Shown in pieces: positions 55,118-63,401 of a DNA stretch of 64,000 nucleotides. This DNA is from Terriglobales bacterium (GTDB lineage: Bacteria; Acidobacteriota; Terriglobia; Bryobacterales; Bryobacteraceae): the NCBI GenBank assembly GCA_021372245.1, contig JAJFUV010000086.1:1-64000 (forward strand). Direction: 5' to 3'. The number at the start of each line of letters is the position of its first letter. The stretch's first letter is position 1. The notes under the pieces are model-generated. The model was not told the DNA's origin and made no database searches. It saw only the letters and a program-made list of their open reading frames with translations. The translations under genes and the position numbers were made by a program.

Positions 55118-56320
55118 ATGCCGGGCAAACAGCTTCTTTCCAGGCGTCAGACGATATTGGGCACGACAGCGCTTTGGGCGGCGCCACAGCAGCGAGTACG
55201 CGTGCCGGTCATCGACATCACGGACCTTTACCATCCCCACCAGGACATCGGCGACAACGTGGACCTGATCGCCGCCTATGCGCTTCCGGAGATTGATCTC
55301 AAGGCGGTCATCCTGGACGTGACCGGGAAGTTCCGGCGCGCGGTAGCTACCAGTGCCAGCGGCAAAGTGATCGACAAGGACGGCCCGCGCGATCCGGGGG
55401 TCATTCCTGTGATGCAGCTCAATTACCTGTTCGACCGCAATGTGCCGTATGGGATCGGTCCGTTCGAGCCGCTTCGTTCTCCTTCCGACAAGCTCCTGGA
55501 CGCCCCGGAGTTCCAGGAGGCTGGCGTCCGGCTGATCCTCGATGTTCTGCGCACCTCGCGAGAGAAAGTCCATATCGTCAGTTTCGGATCCGCCCGTCCG
55601 CTTGCCGCCGCCTTCAACCGCGAACCGCGCCTGCTGCGAGCGAAGGTGGCAAAGATTCATCTTTGCGCGGGCTCCACTACGCCGCGCTACATCGAGTGGA
55701 ACGTCGAACTCGACCCGCACGCCATGGTTTGCATGCTCAGGTCGGACTTGCCTGTGGCCATCTATCCATGCGCCTCGGACAAGGGTCCGTTCGGCATGGA
55801 TTCAAACAACTGCTACTGGAAGCTGCCGAACCTCGCCTTCGTGAAGAGGATGGATCCACGGCTGCAGCGGTATCTCCGCTATGCCTTCGAGCGGAGCATG
55901 CGGTCATACTTTCTGGAGATTCTCGACCACGACTGGCCGGCTGACGTGATCGATCGCATCGCGGTGCGGCCACATCACGTGTGGGAGACCGCCGTCTGGA
56001 TTCGGACGGCCAACCGCCGGTTGGTGCACCGCCCCGGCCTGGGGTATCGAATCCTGCCAGCGGGCCAGGTGCGTCCGGGCGACCGCGTCCTGCCCAACGA
56101 ACTAAAGCCGTGCCGGGTCTCGGTGCGTGACAACGGGCTGTTCACCTGGGAGTGGAGCAAGGGTCCCAGCAACTTCGAAATGTACGATCGCGGCGATTTC
56201 GAAGAGAACGCGCGGGCACTGCAAGAGGCGCTGCCCGCGCTGTACGAGTCGTTCCGCTGCCCCACCCGCGCGCTAGACGATGCCGTCAAACAGGATCGTA
56301 CTCAAGTAGCGCTCCCCTGA
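55118..56320 (+). CDS. Exported nucleoside-hydrolase-like protein
   Basis: A 400-residue protein with a Tat-like N-terminus ([16 protein letters not shown]). The first part resembles inosine-uridine nucleoside hydrolases: [26 protein letters not shown] is at the place of the DTDPGxDDxxAL calcium site, but several Asp residues are replaced. Later [16 protein letters not shown] matches the sheet that normally carries the base-binding part. The second half is unassigned. With the metal site this altered, it may be a binding protein or a hydrolase with another centre. The end overlaps cysK by 48 bp in convergent orientation. Confidence 0.65.
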
Positions 56321-57226
56321 GTCCGGCAGTATGGTCACGATGTTCTTTCCGGCGAATTCCGGGAGGCGCGCCAAACGCACGGCCACAGCCGCCGCGGCGC
56401 CGCAGGAGATGCCGCTCAGGATGCCCTCCTCGCGAGCCAGTCGACGCGCGGTCTCGATGGATTCCTCGTTCGAAACCAGTTCGACACGATCCACCACGGA
56501 GAGATCCAGCGTGTCCGGTATAAATCCCGCGCCGAGTCCCTGGATCTTGTGTGGGCCAGGCTTGAGCGGTTCACCGGCACGGATCTGCGTGATCACGGGA
56601 CTGCCCTCCGGTTCCACCGCCACAGCAGTGATCTTCTTGCCGCGCACGTTCTTGATGTAACGCGCAACACCGGTAATGGTGCCTCCCGTGCCGACGCCGC
56701 TCACCAGGACGTCCACCTGCCCGTCGGTGTCCTCCCAGATTTCGGGTCCCGTGGTCTTGAAATGGATTTCGGGATTGGCTGGATTCTTGAACTGCTGCAG
56801 CAACACGTAGTGGTTCGGATCGGAAGCGGCAATCTCCTCGGCCTTGGCGATGGCACCTTTCATCCCCTGGGCGCCTTCGGTGAGAATCAGGTTCGCACCG
56901 AAAGCTTTCAGGACCTTGCGCCGCTCGAGCGACATGGTTTCCGGCATGGTGAGCGTGATCGGGTAGCCGCGCGCGGCGGCTACGAAGGCCAGAGCGATAC
57001 CGGTGTTACCGCTGGTGGGCTCCACCAGTTCGCGTCCGGCTTTGAGGACACCGCGTTTCTCGGCGTCCCAGACCATGGAGGCGCCGATCCGGCACTTCAC
57101 CGAATACGCCGGATTGCGCCCCTCGATTTTGGCGAGCACTGTCGCACCCGCGCCGGCGGCGAGCTTGTTCAGCTTCACCAGCGGGGTCTTTCCTATGCTG
57201 AAACTGTTGTCCTCGTAAACCCTCAT
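56273..57226 (-). CDS. cysK: Cysteine synthase (O-acetylserine sulfhydrylase)
   Basis: A 317-residue PLP enzyme. The PLP lysine lies in [15 protein letters not shown], the substrate loop is [14 protein letters not shown], and [16 protein letters not shown] binds the phosphate. It makes cysteine from O-acetylserine and sulfide. The ATG at 57226 is chosen because AGGAG lies 8 bp upstream; the GTG at 57235 sits on that ribosome site. The ribosome site overlaps the end of metY, so translation is coupled. Together with metY it allows sulfide assimilation into both cysteine and homocysteine. Confidence 0.95.
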
Positions 57227-57231
57227 GTGAC

Positions 57232-58539
57232 TCACTCCTGTGAAATCCTCAGGGCCTGATCGAAATCGGCCTTGATGTCTTCGATTGACTCGATACCAAC
57301 CGACACCCGCACGTACTCCGGTGTAACCCCGGTTGAGGCTTGTTCTTCCTCGGTCAACTGTGAGTGCGTGGTGGATGCGGGATGGATTACCAACGTCCTG
57401 GCGTCGCCCACATTGGCCAAATGGCTCGCCAGTTTCACGTTGTTGATGAACTTCACACCGGCGGCCTTACCGCCGCGGATGCCGAAACCCAGGATGGCGC
57501 CCGCGCCGTCCGGCAGGTACTTCTTCGCCAGTTTGTGGTGCGGGTGGTTGGGCAAGCCGGGGTAGTTCACCCAATCCGCCGCTGGATGCTTTTCCAACCA
57601 CTCTGCCAACGCCTGAGCGTTCTGAACGTGGCGTTCCATGCGCAAGTGGAGGGTCTCCAGGCCGAGCAGGAAGAGGAAAGACGCGAATGGACTCTGCGCT
57701 GCACCCGTGTCCCGGAGCCAGTGCGTGCGAATGTGCACGATGTAAGCGAGGTTGCCCAGCGGCTTCAGTGCTTCCGTAAAGATGAGGCCGTGGTAGGAAT
57801 CCGAAGGCGCAGTGAACTCGGGCCACTTTGCGGGGTTCCCAGCCCACTGGAAATTGCCGCTGTCGACGATGGCGCCGCCGACGTGCACGCCGTGCCCACC
57901 CAGGAACTTCGTGGTCGAATACACGGCGATGTCCACGCCGTGTTCAAACGGACGGAACAGCGCCGGCGTCAGCACCGTGTTGTCGACAATGACCGGCAGG
58001 CCGTGCTTGTGCGCGACATCTGCAATCTTCCTGAAATCGGGCACGTCGTTCTTTGGGTTGCCGACGGACTCGAGATATACCAGGCGCGTGTTCTCGTCAA
58101 CCAGTTTGTCGATTTCCTCCGGATGATCCGGATTGAAGAATCGCACCTCGATGCCCAACTTCTTAAAGGTTTGAGCGAACAGCGCCCACGTGCCTCCATA
58201 CAGGCTAGTGGCGGAAATGAGATTCTGTCCGGCGTGCGTGATCGTAAGGACCGCCGCTGTGATAGCCGCCGCTCCGGAGGCGAACGCGAGCGCGCCCACG
58301 CCACCGTCGAGAGCGGCCAGACGCTTTTCCAGCACGTCGTTAGTCGGGTTGGTCAACCGCGAGTAAATATTGCCGAATTCACGCAGCCCAAATAAGTTCG
58401 CGGCATGGGCGGCGTCGTGAAAAACGTAGCTTGAGGTGGCGTAAATAGGCACCGCACAAGCGGTGGTTGTCGGGTCAGGCTCTTGGCCGGCGTGCAACGC
58501 CAGCGTGCCGATCCCGGGTTTCCTATGAAAGTCAGCCAT
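57232..58539 (-). CDS. metY: O-acetylhomoserine sulfhydrylase (MetY-type)
   Basis: A 435-residue enzyme of the Cys/Met metabolism PLP family. It begins with [15 protein letters not shown], has [23 protein letters not shown], and the PLP lysine in [22 protein letters not shown]. The insertion pattern ([10 protein letters not shown]) fits MetY rather than MetB/MetC. It makes homocysteine from O-acetylhomoserine and sulfide. AGGAG lies 9 bp upstream. It is the second gene of an operon led by a barrel-like protein and ends 5 bp before cysK. Confidence 0.95.
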
Positions 58540-58576: not shown

Positions 58577-59443
58577 TCAGATGCCATACGAGATGCCCAA
58601 GGCAAATTGGTGGCGCGCCTTCAGGTCCACTCCCGGCAGTATCTTCCCGGCTGCCTGGGCCACACCGAGGTCGATATTGAACTTCGACTCAGGACGAGGC
58701 ACGAAGCGCGCCGCATAGGTGATGGTGGTGGGAACAATCGCTCCCGGTAGGTTCCTCACTTCCCGCGGTTGCTGCGCGAACTCCGAGCCGAGGATCAAGG
58801 TGCTCTTTCGGGGCGTCTTGAACACGAATGCCCCCGCGCCGAACAAGCGGCCCTTGTAAGCCGGTGAGTTGCCCGCCAAGCCGAATACGGACGCGTTCGT
58901 GGCCTTATATCCTACGCTCAATAGGATGGGGACTGCCTTGGTTTGAGTCACCGTCTTGGTGGCCACGGCATAGAAATCAGCGTTACTGTAATCCTTGCCG
59001 GCCAAGACGCCGCTCACGTGATGCACCTGGCTGCGCGCCACAAAGCCTGTCGAAATCGCCGGCAACCATTTATTCTTGCCCGCATTCTCGGGAACAAGGT
59101 TCGCCTTGGCGTGAACAATATTGAATCCGCCGTCCCAGAGCGGACTCAGCGATGCCGTGCTCCCTTGCTGGCTAAAGGTGCGGGTGTAGCCGAACTCGAC
59201 TCGCTTCACCAACCCTACTGTAGCTGATGCTGTGTGGAAGTTGCCCAGAACGGAGCCTGCATTCAAAAAGTGATAAGCCAGAATCGGCTTTCCTATGCCC
59301 TTCTCTGGTGAAGCCGCCGTATAAGCCAGTGGCGTTACGAAAACGCCGGTCTGCCCTTCCCAGTTCAGGCTCTGCGCCACCATGCGGCCACCGGATATCG
59401 TGACCAGGGCCGCCAATACCGTCAAAGCTTGCTGCGATCTCAT
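58577..59443 (-). CDS. Putative outer-membrane beta-barrel protein
   Basis: A 288-residue exported protein. The ATG at 59443 has AAGGA 7 bp upstream and starts a signal peptide (MRSQQALTVLAALVTISGG, then MVAQ). The remainder is beta-rich with alternating hydrophobic residues and many Gly and aromatic turns (FVTPLAYTAA, VKRVEFGYTRTF, FGAGAFVFKTP). It ends LALGISYGI, compatible with a C-terminal barrel strand ending in a hydrophobic residue. It resembles acidobacterial and proteobacterial DUF3034-like barrels. It leads the metY-cysK operon and could import a sulfur compound. An upstream in-frame extension to 59683 crosses the long leader and is left out. Confidence 0.7.
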   Translation of the reverse strand: MRSQQALTVLAALVTISGGRMVAQSLNWEGQTGVFVTPLAYTAASPEKGIGKPILAYHFLNAGSVLGNFHTASATVGLVKRVEFGYTRTFSQQGSTASLSPLWDGGFNIVHAKANLVPENAGKNKWLPAISTGFVARSQVHHVSGVLAGKDYSNADFYAVATKTVTQTKAVPILLSVGYKATNASVFGLAGNSPAYKGRLFGAGAFVFKTPRKSTLILGSEFAQQPREVRNLPGAIVPTTITYAARFVPRPESKFNIDLGVAQAAGKILPGVDLKARHQFALGISYGI

Positions 59444-59704
59444 TTTTAAGTCCTTTTTCCCCATTGAATTCAAGACGTCTGTAGAGAAAGATCCCCCCCT
59501 TGCGCGCCAAAGGGCACGCTGGGAATCAGTTCCATGGAATGAGGTCTTCGCCGCCACCACCACCGTGCCGGTTTCTAACCGGTTCACGGCAGGGGGACGG
59601 CCATCAACAGCTACAAGGGGTTTTGGTACGCCTTGGACGGTGAGGGCGACGAGATGCCCATACTTTAATATCTTGATCGACATTTGGATGTATGCGCACC
59701 ATCT
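59444..59704 (-). promoter_or_regulatory. Long structured 5' leader of the sulfur operon (riboswitch or attenuator candidate)
   Basis: From the promoter at 59711-59739 the transcript would have about 260 nt before the first gene. It contains a strong hairpin (59563-59589) and C-rich and G-rich tracts (about 59593-59597 and 59492-59498) that could pair. No known riboswitch consensus was matched by eye. The frame stays open through the leader (from 59683), so a leader peptide or longer protein cannot be excluded. Confidence 0.5.
59563..59589 (-). promoter_or_regulatory. Strong hairpin inside the leader
   Basis: A 6-bp CCGGTT/AACCGG stem with a 3-base loop sits inside a 5-bp CCGTG/CACGG stem, separated by a 2-base bulge on one side. 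The whole element spans 27 nt near the middle of the leader. Confidence 0.6.
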
Positions 59705-59710
59705 ATGCCT

Positions 59711-59739
59711 ATTCTATCGGCGCACCGTTACCTTGTCAA
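59711..59739 (-). promoter_or_regulatory. Strong sigma70-like promoter of the barrel-metY-cysK operon
   Basis: On the minus strand TTGACA (59739-59734) and TAGAAT (59716-59711) are separated by exactly 17 bp. Both hexamers are near or at consensus. It is the best-looking housekeeping promoter in the window. The flanks are AT-rich compared with surrounding genes. Confidence 0.8.
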
Positions 59740-59850: not shown

Positions 59851-60546
59851 GTGCGCACACGTCATGTAGAGCGGCATCGCACCGAGCGTATCGGCTGGCT
59901 GAGAGCGGCCGTGTTGGGTGCTGACGACGGCATCGTATCGACCGCGAGTCTCGTGGTAGGCGTCGCGGCGTCCCACGCGACACGCGGCAACATCCTCGTT
60001 GCGGGAGTCGCGGGACTGGTGGCGGGCGCCATGTCGATGGCGGCTGGCGAATACGTTTCGGTCCACTCACAGGCCGATACGGAAGCGGCTGATTTCGAAC
60101 GCGAGCGCGAGGAACTCCGCACCGATTACAAAAGCGAAGTCAAGGAACTAACCAAGATCTACACCGATCGCGGGATCGAGCCGTCTCTCGCCCTTCAGGT
60201 CGCCGAGCAGTTGATGGCACACGATGCGCTCGGCGCACATGCGCGCGATGAACTGGGCATATCGGAGACGCTGAGCGCACGCCCCATACAAGCGGCGCTC
60301 GCGTCGGCCGGCAGCTTCGCCGTCGGCGCCCTATTGCCACTCCTGGTCACGGCCTTCGCTCCATCTGCCGGATTGATTCCCTTAGTCTCCGCAACTTCGC
60401 TCGTGTCTCTGGCGGCACTGGGAGGAGTGGCGGCGCACGCGGGTGGTGCGGGCGTCGGAGCAGGCGCTCTGCGCGTCACCTTCTGGGGCGCGCTGGCCAT
60501 GTTATCGACGGCTGGAGTCGGCGCGCTGTTCGGGAGAGTAATCTGA
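59851..60546 (+). CDS. VIT1/CCC1-family iron/manganese transporter
   Basis: A 231-residue membrane protein of the vacuolar iron transporter family. It begins GWLRAAVLGADDGIVSTASLVVGVAA, the family signature of the first helix, and has AGAMSMAAGEYVSVHSQADTE in helix 2. A cytosolic acidic stretch (ERELRTDYKSEVKELTKIY region) is likely to bind metal. Three C-terminal helices follow. It moves Fe2+ or Mn2+ across a membrane for storage or detoxification. The start is GTG with AGGGAG 8 bp upstream. It is divergent from the sulfur operon and next to a transposase remnant. Confidence 0.88.
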   Translation: MRTRHVERHRTERIGWLRAAVLGADDGIVSTASLVVGVAASHATRGNILVAGVAGLVAGAMSMAAGEYVSVHSQADTEAADFEREREELRTDYKSEVKELTKIYTDRGIEPSLALQVAEQLMAHDALGAHARDELGISETLSARPIQAALASAGSFAVGALLPLLVTAFAPSAGLIPLVSATSLVSLAALGGVAAHAGGAGVGAGALRVTFWGALAMLSTAGVGALFGRVI

Positions 60547-60978: not shown

Positions 60979-62076
60979 TCAGAAGTGTATCTCCTCCCAG
61001 GGCCGGTCCGGCGAAGCAAAATGCCCGTCACGCGCGAGAGACGGGAGATTAGCGGTCAGAGCGTAGCGCTCACCCGCGGCGGCGAGCGAGAGGTCGATGA
61101 GCGCGGCCCAACGCTCCGGGTCCAGAACCGCACCTGCGGCGTCCCGCAGGGACACGATGCGGAACGATGCGTCTCCGGGGAAGATGGCAAGAGTAGCAGT
61201 GCACTCCGCCGCGACTCCGGCCGCCACGACGGTTTTGGCGAGCCTGCGCGAGAGCACGGCGCCGGCACGGTCAGCCTTGAAAAAGTCCTTGCCGCTCAGA
61301 GCCCCGCCGCCGATCGGGACCCGCGGCCCATATGCGTCCACAACGAGTTTCTTGCCACTCAGTCCGTTGTCTCCTTCCGGCCCGCCAACCTCGAAGTTGC
61401 CCGCCCCATTCACGTGGAACTGCGCCGGCAGCTCGGGGCGGAAGCCAGGGATTCCCGGCGCGCATGCGTGCAGTTCCTCCGCCACCGCGGCGCGAGCCGC
61501 ACGGTGCAGTTCGATCTCGCTTGCTCCGATCTTTTGCTGCAGCGAAACGCTGAGAGCAGTGAGGGAGTTCGCCGCCGAGTCAAATAGTAGAACCACTTTG
61601 CCATCGGGGCCGAGTCCGAGTTCGGGCGTATCGTACCGCAATCGTTGCAGGCGGCGCGACAGCCGGCACGCCAGCCAGTGCTCAGGAGGCAGCCAATTCG
61701 TCCCCGGAGAATCCATGGCGTAGCCGGCGACGATCGACTGGTCGTCCGATACGTCGCGAAAGGATGCCTCGCCCTCGTGGAGGGGGCCGAGGCAGAGGTT
61801 GGTGTACACCTCTATCTGTTCCGGGGCGGGAAGCCACTCCCCGCCATAACCGGCAGCGCGGTAGCTTTCGCGGGCGATCTCCTCAACCGGAATCTCCTCG
61901 GCGTTGGCGCAGGCGATGCGGCCGGTGATGAACACCGTGTCGCGATGGGCGGCTATCTCGATGCCGCATAGGGCGCGCTTTTCGCGCCGCGCAGCCTCTT
62001 CGACCAGCGCGTCCGCGATGGCATCACACAGCTTGTCAGGGTGTCCAGGAAAGACGGATTCGGCGGCATAGGTCAT
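60979..62076 (-). CDS. Divergent S-adenosylmethionine synthetase
   Basis: A 365-residue protein of the MetK family but clearly divergent. Kept features: AESVFPGHPDK (residues 5-15, ATP and metal site), Glu40 in the methionine region, GGPEGDNGLSGKK (231-243), IGGGALSGKDFFKADR (255-270, P-loop-like) and a final GHFASPDRPWE. The GAGDQGLMFGYA motif is reduced to VSDDQSIVAGYA (109-120). The start at 62076 overlaps the stop of the preceding gene (TAATG). An open frame to 62310 was rejected. It should make AdoMet from methionine and ATP. As a tightly coupled fourth gene of a metallopeptidase-vWA operon it is probably not the housekeeping MetK. Confidence 0.85.
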   Translation of the reverse strand: MTYAAESVFPGHPDKLCDAIADALVEEAARREKRALCGIEIAAHRDTVFITGRIACANAEEIPVEEIARESYRAAGYGGEWLPAPEQIEVYTNLCLGPLHEGEASFRDVSDDQSIVAGYAMDSPGTNWLPPEHWLACRLSRRLQRLRYDTPELGLGPDGKVVLLFDSAANSLTALSVSLQQKIGASEIELHRAARAAVAEELHACAPGIPGFRPELPAQFHVNGAGNFEVGGPEGDNGLSGKKLVVDAYGPRVPIGGGALSGKDFFKADRAGAVLSRRLAKTVVAAGVAAECTATLAIFPGDASFRIVSLRDAAGAVLDPERWAALIDLSLAAAGERYALTANLPSLARDGHFASPDRPWEEIHF

Positions 62077-63401
62077 TACTGTTTCTCCTCTTCCAGTTCT
62101 GCCCAGTAGCGGGCGACGGGTTCCAGGTCGCCGCGAAAGCTGTAACCCGGGGCAAGCGCAACACCCAGGACACAGCGGGAGAGCGTGCGGGCGGCTCCTG
62201 CCCCCGGCCTCCCGACCGCTCCGTCGGTGACCAGGACGGCACGGCGCACCCCGTGCTTGCGCATGTGACTGGCGACGCACTCGATGCTGGTTCCGTTGGT
62301 GGTCCGGCATTCGCCCAGCCGCAACTCGCGGAGCGAGATGTCATGGACGATCGTCGAGAAGAGGTGGATCGCCGGATGGACCATCGCGGCACAATCCGCC
62401 ACCGCGCTGTAGAGAGCGGACTTGTAATCGCCAATGCTGCCACTGACGTCCAGATAGACGTGGACGCGCTCGCACGAGAGCGGTCTGAGGACCGTGGTTT
62501 CGGCGCGGTAGAGCAATTGCGGAACGCCCATCGCGCGCAGCACGACGGAGCGGCGGTCGGGGGCAGGCACCGGCGACGTGACAGCGAGCGGCTGCGGCCC
62601 GCGGACCCCGTGCCTCGCGCCTGCACCCCGCCCAGCCACCTTGCGGAGAAGCGCCCGCAGAACGGCACGGTTGGACGGACGGCGGGTAACACGCGAGAGA
62701 TCGAGCAGCTCGGACCAGGACCGGCCCGCGATGGGATTCGGAGGTTGCGGCCAGCGTTCCACGATGGACCGCACTACCTCGAAAACCATGCCATGTAATT
62801 GGTCGAGCTCCGCGCCGTGGTTTCCGATCAGTGGGACCGTCAGAACTTTCGACAGCAGACTGCGCAGGGCGTGATACAACTCCTGGTAGTTGGCGCCTGT
62901 TTCCGAGTAGAGCGCCCGGTAGACGTTCCTCACAGGGCACATGAGTTCGACCTCCAGCGCCCGGGGCACCGGCGCTAACCCCGACGGGTTCCAGCCGGTC
63001 GCGGGGCGAAGCAGGCATTCGGGGAAGCGGTCCTCGCTGTAATAGCACGTAAGAAAAGACGTATACTCCGGGCCCGGGAACATCCGGCAGATCAGCGCGT
63101 TGATGACCGCGTCGAAGATGAGATTATCGGTGGAGGTGGCGCGCGGGAACAGCCGCGTATGGCCGAGCAGCACATGGTGCAATTCGTGCATGACCAGCAT
63201 CAGGAGCCGCTCCGGCGTGTCTGCGTGCGCGGCGACGAACACAGGGTTAATCAGCATGCGAGGCAGTTCGGCGCATTCCACTGCCGCGGTATTCACCGTC
63301 GTGGTTTCGACGATATCCATGAGGCGGAGCAGGGCGAGCAATCCGTAGTTTCCGCTCGGAAACGCGTCGAGGATTCGTTCTTCAAGCGACGTGGCGATCA
63401 T
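62076..63401 (-). CDS. Putative metallopeptidase fused to vWA domain (DUF2201-like)
   Basis: A 441-residue two-part protein. The N-terminal half has a zinc motif MHELHHVLLGH (His72, Glu73, His76, possible third ligand His81) in a helical context. The C-terminal half is a vWA-like domain with a complete metal-ion-dependent adhesion site: DVSGS (318-322), a Thr in RTTNGTS (368-371) and Asp393 in VLVTDGAV. This matches the DUF2201-type putative metallopeptidases that occur with MoxR AAA+ ATPases. It is coupled to the small gene upstream (ATGA) and to the metK-like gene downstream (TAATG). A protease controlled by a MoxR/vWA assembly is the likely role. Confidence 0.8.
   Translation of the reverse strand: MIATSLEERILDAFPSGNYGLLALLRLMDIVETTTVNTAAVECAELPRMLINPVFVAAHADTPERLLMLVMHELHHVLLGHTRLFPRATSTDNLIFDAVINALICRMFPGPEYTSFLTCYYSEDRFPECLLRPATGWNPSGLAPVPRALEVELMCPVRNVYRALYSETGANYQELYHALRSLLSKVLTVPLIGNHGAELDQLHGMVFEVVRSIVERWPQPPNPIAGRSWSELLDLSRVTRRPSNRAVLRALLRKVAGRGAGARHGVRGPQPLAVTSPVPAPDRRSVVLRAMGVPQLLYRAETTVLRPLSCERVHVYLDVSGSIGDYKSALYSAVADCAAMVHPAIHLFSTIVHDISLRELRLGECRTTNGTSIECVASHMRKHGVRRAVLVTDGAVGRPGAGAARTLSRCVLGVALAPGYSFRGDLEPVARYWAELEEEKQ

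Follow-up and report, generated by a model that had tools for sequence, protein, structure and literature searches.

Genes and features of the locus

The window, by which we mean the entire 64,000-nucleotide stretch of DNA analysed, carries on its minus strand a sulfur operon preceded by a leader of 261 nt, which extends from the predicted transcription start near 59704 to the ATG of the first gene at 59443. The features considered in the present study are the following:

59711..59739, minus strand: sigma-70-type promoter TTGACA-17-TAGAAT (11/12 consensus positions)
59703..59719, minus strand: possible degenerate operator-like motif CCGATAGAATAGGCATA over the -10 box, weakly resembling TCKRTAGANTATNGGGA of relatives
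59604..59702, minus strand: (near-)leaderless short ORF encoding a putative leader peptide, MVRIHPNVDQDIKVWASRRPHRPRRTKTPCSC followed by a stop codon (shuffle P 0.015; Cys-ending ORFs at both orthologous operons)
59607..59615, minus strand: candidate sensor codons TGT-AGC-TGT (Cys-Ser-Cys) directly 5' of the stop, from translation of the leader
59563..59589, minus strand: 11-bp bulged hairpin, 14 bases past the stop of the short ORF
59485..59514, minus strand: weak terminator-like stem followed by GGATCTTTCT, including the G tract of a proposed C/G pairing (0.4 such sites expected by chance)
58577..59443, minus strand: DUF3034 protein with a signal peptide, predicted to be beta-rich (barrel-like) (Pfam E 1.4e-8)
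57232..58539, minus strand: metY, O-acetylhomoserine/O-acetylserine sulfhydrylase (TIGR01326 over cut-off)
56273..57235, minus strand: cysK, cysteine synthase A (TIGR01139 over cut-off)

The gene calls of an earlier note on this DNA (a barrel-like protein, metY and cysK) were borne out by the DUF3034 match and the two TIGR families, and its promoter was confirmed on the minus strand, with TTGACA at 59739-59734 and TAGAAT at 59716-59711 separated by 17 bases; a promoter scan found one site, compared with 0.5 ± 0.6 in shuffles. The protein heading the sulfur operon, DUF3034, is of unknown function, and AlphaFold models it with low confidence (pLDDT 57.5) as a beta-rich fold of about 13 strands. 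The MetY and CysK enzymes have cysteine and homocysteine as products. A divergent gene for a VIT1-family membrane protein (59851-60546) has its intergenic region in common with the sulfur operon. Also near the operon is a divergent S-adenosylmethionine synthetase-like gene (60979-62310), the C-terminal domain of which scored over the Pfam cut-off and TIGR01034 far below its cut-off; this ORF is longer than its homologous part.

A short ORF with terminal cysteine codons

The leader had been described as about 260 nt without an assigned gene, which is right as to its length but overlooked a short ORF (59702-59604) running from the predicted start of transcription. Its ATG at 59702 lies 8 bases past the -10 box and thus no more than two bases from the expected transcription start, so that the ORF is predicted to be leaderless or nearly so. 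The ORF comprises 32 codons and stops at 59604, just before the hairpin. The encoded peptide ends in TPCSC and has only two cysteines, which are non-contiguous with a serine between them, making it the weakest of the three copies described below. Across these copies, eight of the nine Cys codons are UGU, as against 3 of the 28 Cys codons in eight window genes, although this excess provides weaker support because intergenic DNA is less G+C-rich (53% G+C in the leader vs 63% in the window).

Orthologous operons were located using the DUF3034 protein as query. This identified four loci in GTDB contigs (two in Bryobacterales MAGs and two in more distant Acidobacteriota), a further eight in 237 genomes of the same family and about 25 in a class-wide sample. 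DUF3034 was found ahead of metY in only three lineages, namely the window and two other Bryobacterales, L031 (=L076) and L032 (=L077). In L031, the promoter TTGCAG-17-TAAACT is followed after nine bases by the ATG of the short ORF MYSMPALMAARLTPRRVLLMCSCPSTPPLPCSCS, whose Cys-rich end is MCSCPSTPPLPCSCS (CSCS, then stop), while in L032 the promoter TTGACG-17-TATACT is followed by approximately 15 nt with a Shine-Dalgarno sequence and then by the short ORF MITLTSACCCL, which ends in CCCL before the stop. A promoter and a short ORF with two or three Cys in the last four codons were therefore present in 3/3 DUF3034-metY operons, with the last Cys codon adjoining the stop or separated from it by a single codon.

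We estimated the chance frequency of such ORFs, taken as ATG-started ORFs of at least seven codons with at least two Cys among the last four, from dinucleotide shuffles of each leader. They occurred in 1.5% of shuffles for the window, 0.5% for L031 and 1.0% for L032, and the three Cys of L032 were reproduced in none of 4000 shuffles. The corresponding single-locus P values (0.015 for the window, 0.005 for L031 and <0.0003 for L032, for ATG starts) are optimistic because the definition was chosen post hoc, after the peptides had been seen. An ORF of this kind was present at two DUF3034 loci (L124 and L135) out of about 30 that lack metY, and at 0/14 close metY loci without DUF3034. A 493-kb portion of the genome containing the window gave 68 short-ORF entries that start no more than 60 bases after a promoter-like site, and the sole ORF among them with this ending was that of the window, which is listed twice owing to its two start codons. 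No comparable Cys-ending short ORF was seen at the second cysK, the second metY or cysS of the same genomes, and among Cys-leader ORFs sought more widely, at cysH as well as at second cysK, second metY and cysS loci, none was convincing.

Folding and structural elements of the leader

The nested 11-bp hairpin reported earlier is present at 59589-59563 (CCGTG-aa-CCGGTT-aga-AACCGG-CACGG) and consists of 6+5 pairs with a 2-base bulge. The complementary C and G tracts likewise exist, with C tracts at 59621-59618 and within GTCCCCC just after 59604, and a G tract at 59499-59493, but their pairing as a switch was not supported. By our estimate, about two complementary 7-bp stretches would arise at random in 261 nt of leader, and the pairing would not discriminate between ribosome positions because the C tract would be covered whether the ribosome stood on the Cys codons or on the stop. 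An intrinsic terminator was also rejected, as the sole site in the leader is weak (6 pairs and a broken T run) and of a kind expected 0.4 times by chance.

Alternative explanations for the leader

The earlier note had read the leader as regulatory and possibly as a new regulatory RNA. Sulfur genes are often riboswitch targets and the whole leader folds better than its dinucleotide shuffles (-98.4 vs -84.6 ± 5.1 kcal/mol, z -2.7), both of which would suit a structured metabolite-binding RNA or other new RNA class. However, no Rfam family matched the leader, or any other part of the window, at the gathering score, and matches to the leader at E ≤ 10 were at chance level. Searches with the leader DNA were negative in its own genome and showed no conservation in the 60 related genomes searched, where matches covered only about 20-50 bases at E 3e-4 or weaker and fell mostly in the GGTGGTGGTGGCGG stretch, and a distant blastn search in plasmids gave no match. 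The leaders of the three orthologous operons, moreover, differ in length, have unlike hairpins and share no detectable nucleotide similarity, their pairwise alignments not rising above shuffled background. The missing Rfam match and the lack of conservation among relatives make a riboswitch very improbable; a regulatory leader ahead of metY-cysK is the part of the earlier reading that we retain. Still less credible, to the point of being negligible, is that translation begins at 59683, with the leader coding for the N-terminus of the barrel protein. The frame is indeed open from 59683 into the DUF3034 gene, but a Shine-Dalgarno sequence (AAAGGA) precedes 59443, and the DUF3034 homologs start with their own Shine-Dalgarno sequence and signal peptide at the position equivalent to 59443. 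Upstream frames of the homologs are unrelated, so the protein conservation that the earlier note had named as evidence against a regulatory RNA is absent.

An ordinary, unregulated long 5' leader containing a short ORF by chance would be in keeping with the frequency at which two Cys in the last 12 residues, a weak criterion, are encountered in other upstream regions. We nevertheless consider it improbable, since the strict pattern of two Cys within the last four codons recurs in all three operons, which is jointly very unlikely by shuffling, and is found in no other promoter-proximal ORF in 493 kb. A better, though still doubtful, alternative places all regulation at the promoter. The motif TCKRTAGANTATNGGGA occurs at or just after the -10 box of metY and cysH promoters in relatives, including the metY promoters of L036, L037, L038, L049, L060 and L062, the regions upstream of cysH in L096, L102 and L104, and L032:3785-3801, where it forms a near-perfect inverted repeat, CCTATACTCTGTAGAGTATAGG. 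The motif is denser in metY/cysH loci (6.5 and 4.5 hits per 100 kb) than in unselected stretches of the genome to which the window belongs (1.4), which suggests that at sulfur-gene promoters of Bryobacteraceae it likely serves as the operator of an Rrf2-type regulator. CymR, a repressor of cysteine genes in Bacillus and Staphylococcus, belongs to the Rrf2 family, and an Rrf2-family gene directly before the second cysK of the window's genome (L187:222-647; G000:C189) is a possible CymR-like partner. A repressor of this type acting on an operator over the -10 box would render the leader and its Cys codons incidental. Yet the window's copy of the motif is degenerate, and the Cys-ending short ORFs in all three operon lineages would be left unexplained. 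Promoter and leader layers are also not mutually exclusive, and both may act.

A putative cysteine-sensing leader peptide

Based on the promoter, the short ORF with its Cys codons, its placement and its recurrence in two other lineages, we conclude that the leader probably encodes a cysteine-sensing leader peptide akin to the polycysteine leaderless ORFs of mycobacteria. From this we infer its translation, the stalling of ribosomes and the direction of the response. Following transcription from the 59704-59702 region, a ribosome would load on the leaderless mRNA and translate 32 codons up to Cys-Ser-Cys-stop. If charged tRNA-Cys were scarce, it would come to a halt on the two UGU codons that closely precede the hairpin, whereas with plentiful cysteine it would complete the peptide and depart. 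The position of the ribosome could then alter either folding or the access of RNA polymerase or Rho in the remaining 160 nt, such that expression of DUF3034, metY and cysK would rise during shortage and fall when cysteine is plentiful.

The leaders were folded in ViennaRNA with the footprint of a ribosome masked, placed either on the Cys codons or on the stop. In the window this left the DUF3034 ribosome-binding site as accessible as before, and in L031 and L032 accessibility changed by small amounts, although such energy models ignore kinetics. In each of the three leaders, the 60-nt stretch with the largest surplus of C over G extends across the short ORF's end, with C-G maxima of 12, 14 and 8 compared with a 95th percentile of 9 for a random window of the own genome; these figures are only suggestive because they are maxima over a leader. 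A C-rich stretch at this position would suit Rho. A more speculative proposal, which we hold with low confidence, is that leader peptides with Cys codons evolved, or turn over rapidly, in Acidobacteriota, outside the Actinomycetota, in lineages that yielded no sulfite reductase and would have to use direct sulfhydrylation, and that they act by a route other than ribosome-binding-site release or an intrinsic terminator, for instance through Rho access at the C-rich stretch around the Cys codons.

The sulfur gene content of the three genomes with a DUF3034-metY operon, G000 (that of the window), G129 and G194, the latter two being incomplete at 88% and 77%, was also surveyed. Neither a sulfite/nitrite reductase domain nor an over-cut-off SulP transporter was found in the three genomes, and G000 and G129 yielded no PAPS-reductase-type protein either. 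These lineages may depend on reduced sulfur that MetY and CysK take up directly, and tight cysteine sensing at the operon would then be plausible.

Comparison with known leader-peptide systems

Ribosome profiling in mycobacteria drew attention to leaderless short ORFs that carry clusters of Cys codons and precede cysteine genes (PMC4633059); such ORFs have since been reported to be cysteine-responsive attenuators (Canestrari et al. 2020, as summarised in PMC9031893 and PMC13236596). The window ORF resembles these polycysteine ORFs, such as the one upstream of cysA2 (Rv0815), in being the first ORF of its transcript with a predicted (near-)leaderless start, and in having a C-terminal Cys codon cluster and cysteine-metabolism genes downstream. 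It differs in its host, which belongs to the Acidobacteriota rather than the Actinomycetota, in having only two Cys codons with a Ser between them, and in that its first downstream gene, encoding the DUF3034 barrel-like protein, follows a 160-nt gap. A further difference from the mycobacterial ORFs is that no ribosome-binding-site switch is predicted in the window, where the cysteine response is itself a prediction from sequence. The L032 short ORF also departs from the leaderless type, having about 15 nt with a Shine-Dalgarno sequence ahead of it.

A second precedent is the transcription-attenuating cysS leader with tandem Cys codons, known as the uORFC-8-2 motif (RNA Biol 2021, PMC8632094). 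Its short ORF is proposed to sense charged tRNA-Cys, as is the one described here, but the motif precedes a different gene (cysS), has a conserved two-stem structure and ends in an intrinsic terminator with a U run; the window leader showed neither the two stems nor such a terminator. More generally, attenuators of the trp or uORFC-8-2 type have an intrinsic terminator mutually exclusive with an antiterminator, an arrangement absent from the window leader. The SAM, SAH and cobalamin riboswitches of methionine and cysteine operons have in common with this locus a long leader ahead of metY, but the leader here is without any Rfam match or conserved aptamer. A literature search, with most subscription papers outside its reach, returned no report of such leader peptides in Acidobacteriota.

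Acidobacteriota are abundant soil bacteria. If confirmed, the present findings would extend cysteine sensing by stalling on short leaderless ORFs from mycobacteria to this phylum. They also suggest a precaution: where a long leader ahead of an amino-acid operon looks 'structured', all of its frames should be translated before a riboswitch is invoked, since conservation can reside in a codon pattern that leaves no nucleotide similarity. As a separate observation, metY itself is seemingly leaderless in two relatives (L049 and L060, around position 1500), where its ATG lies 9 bases past the -10 box.
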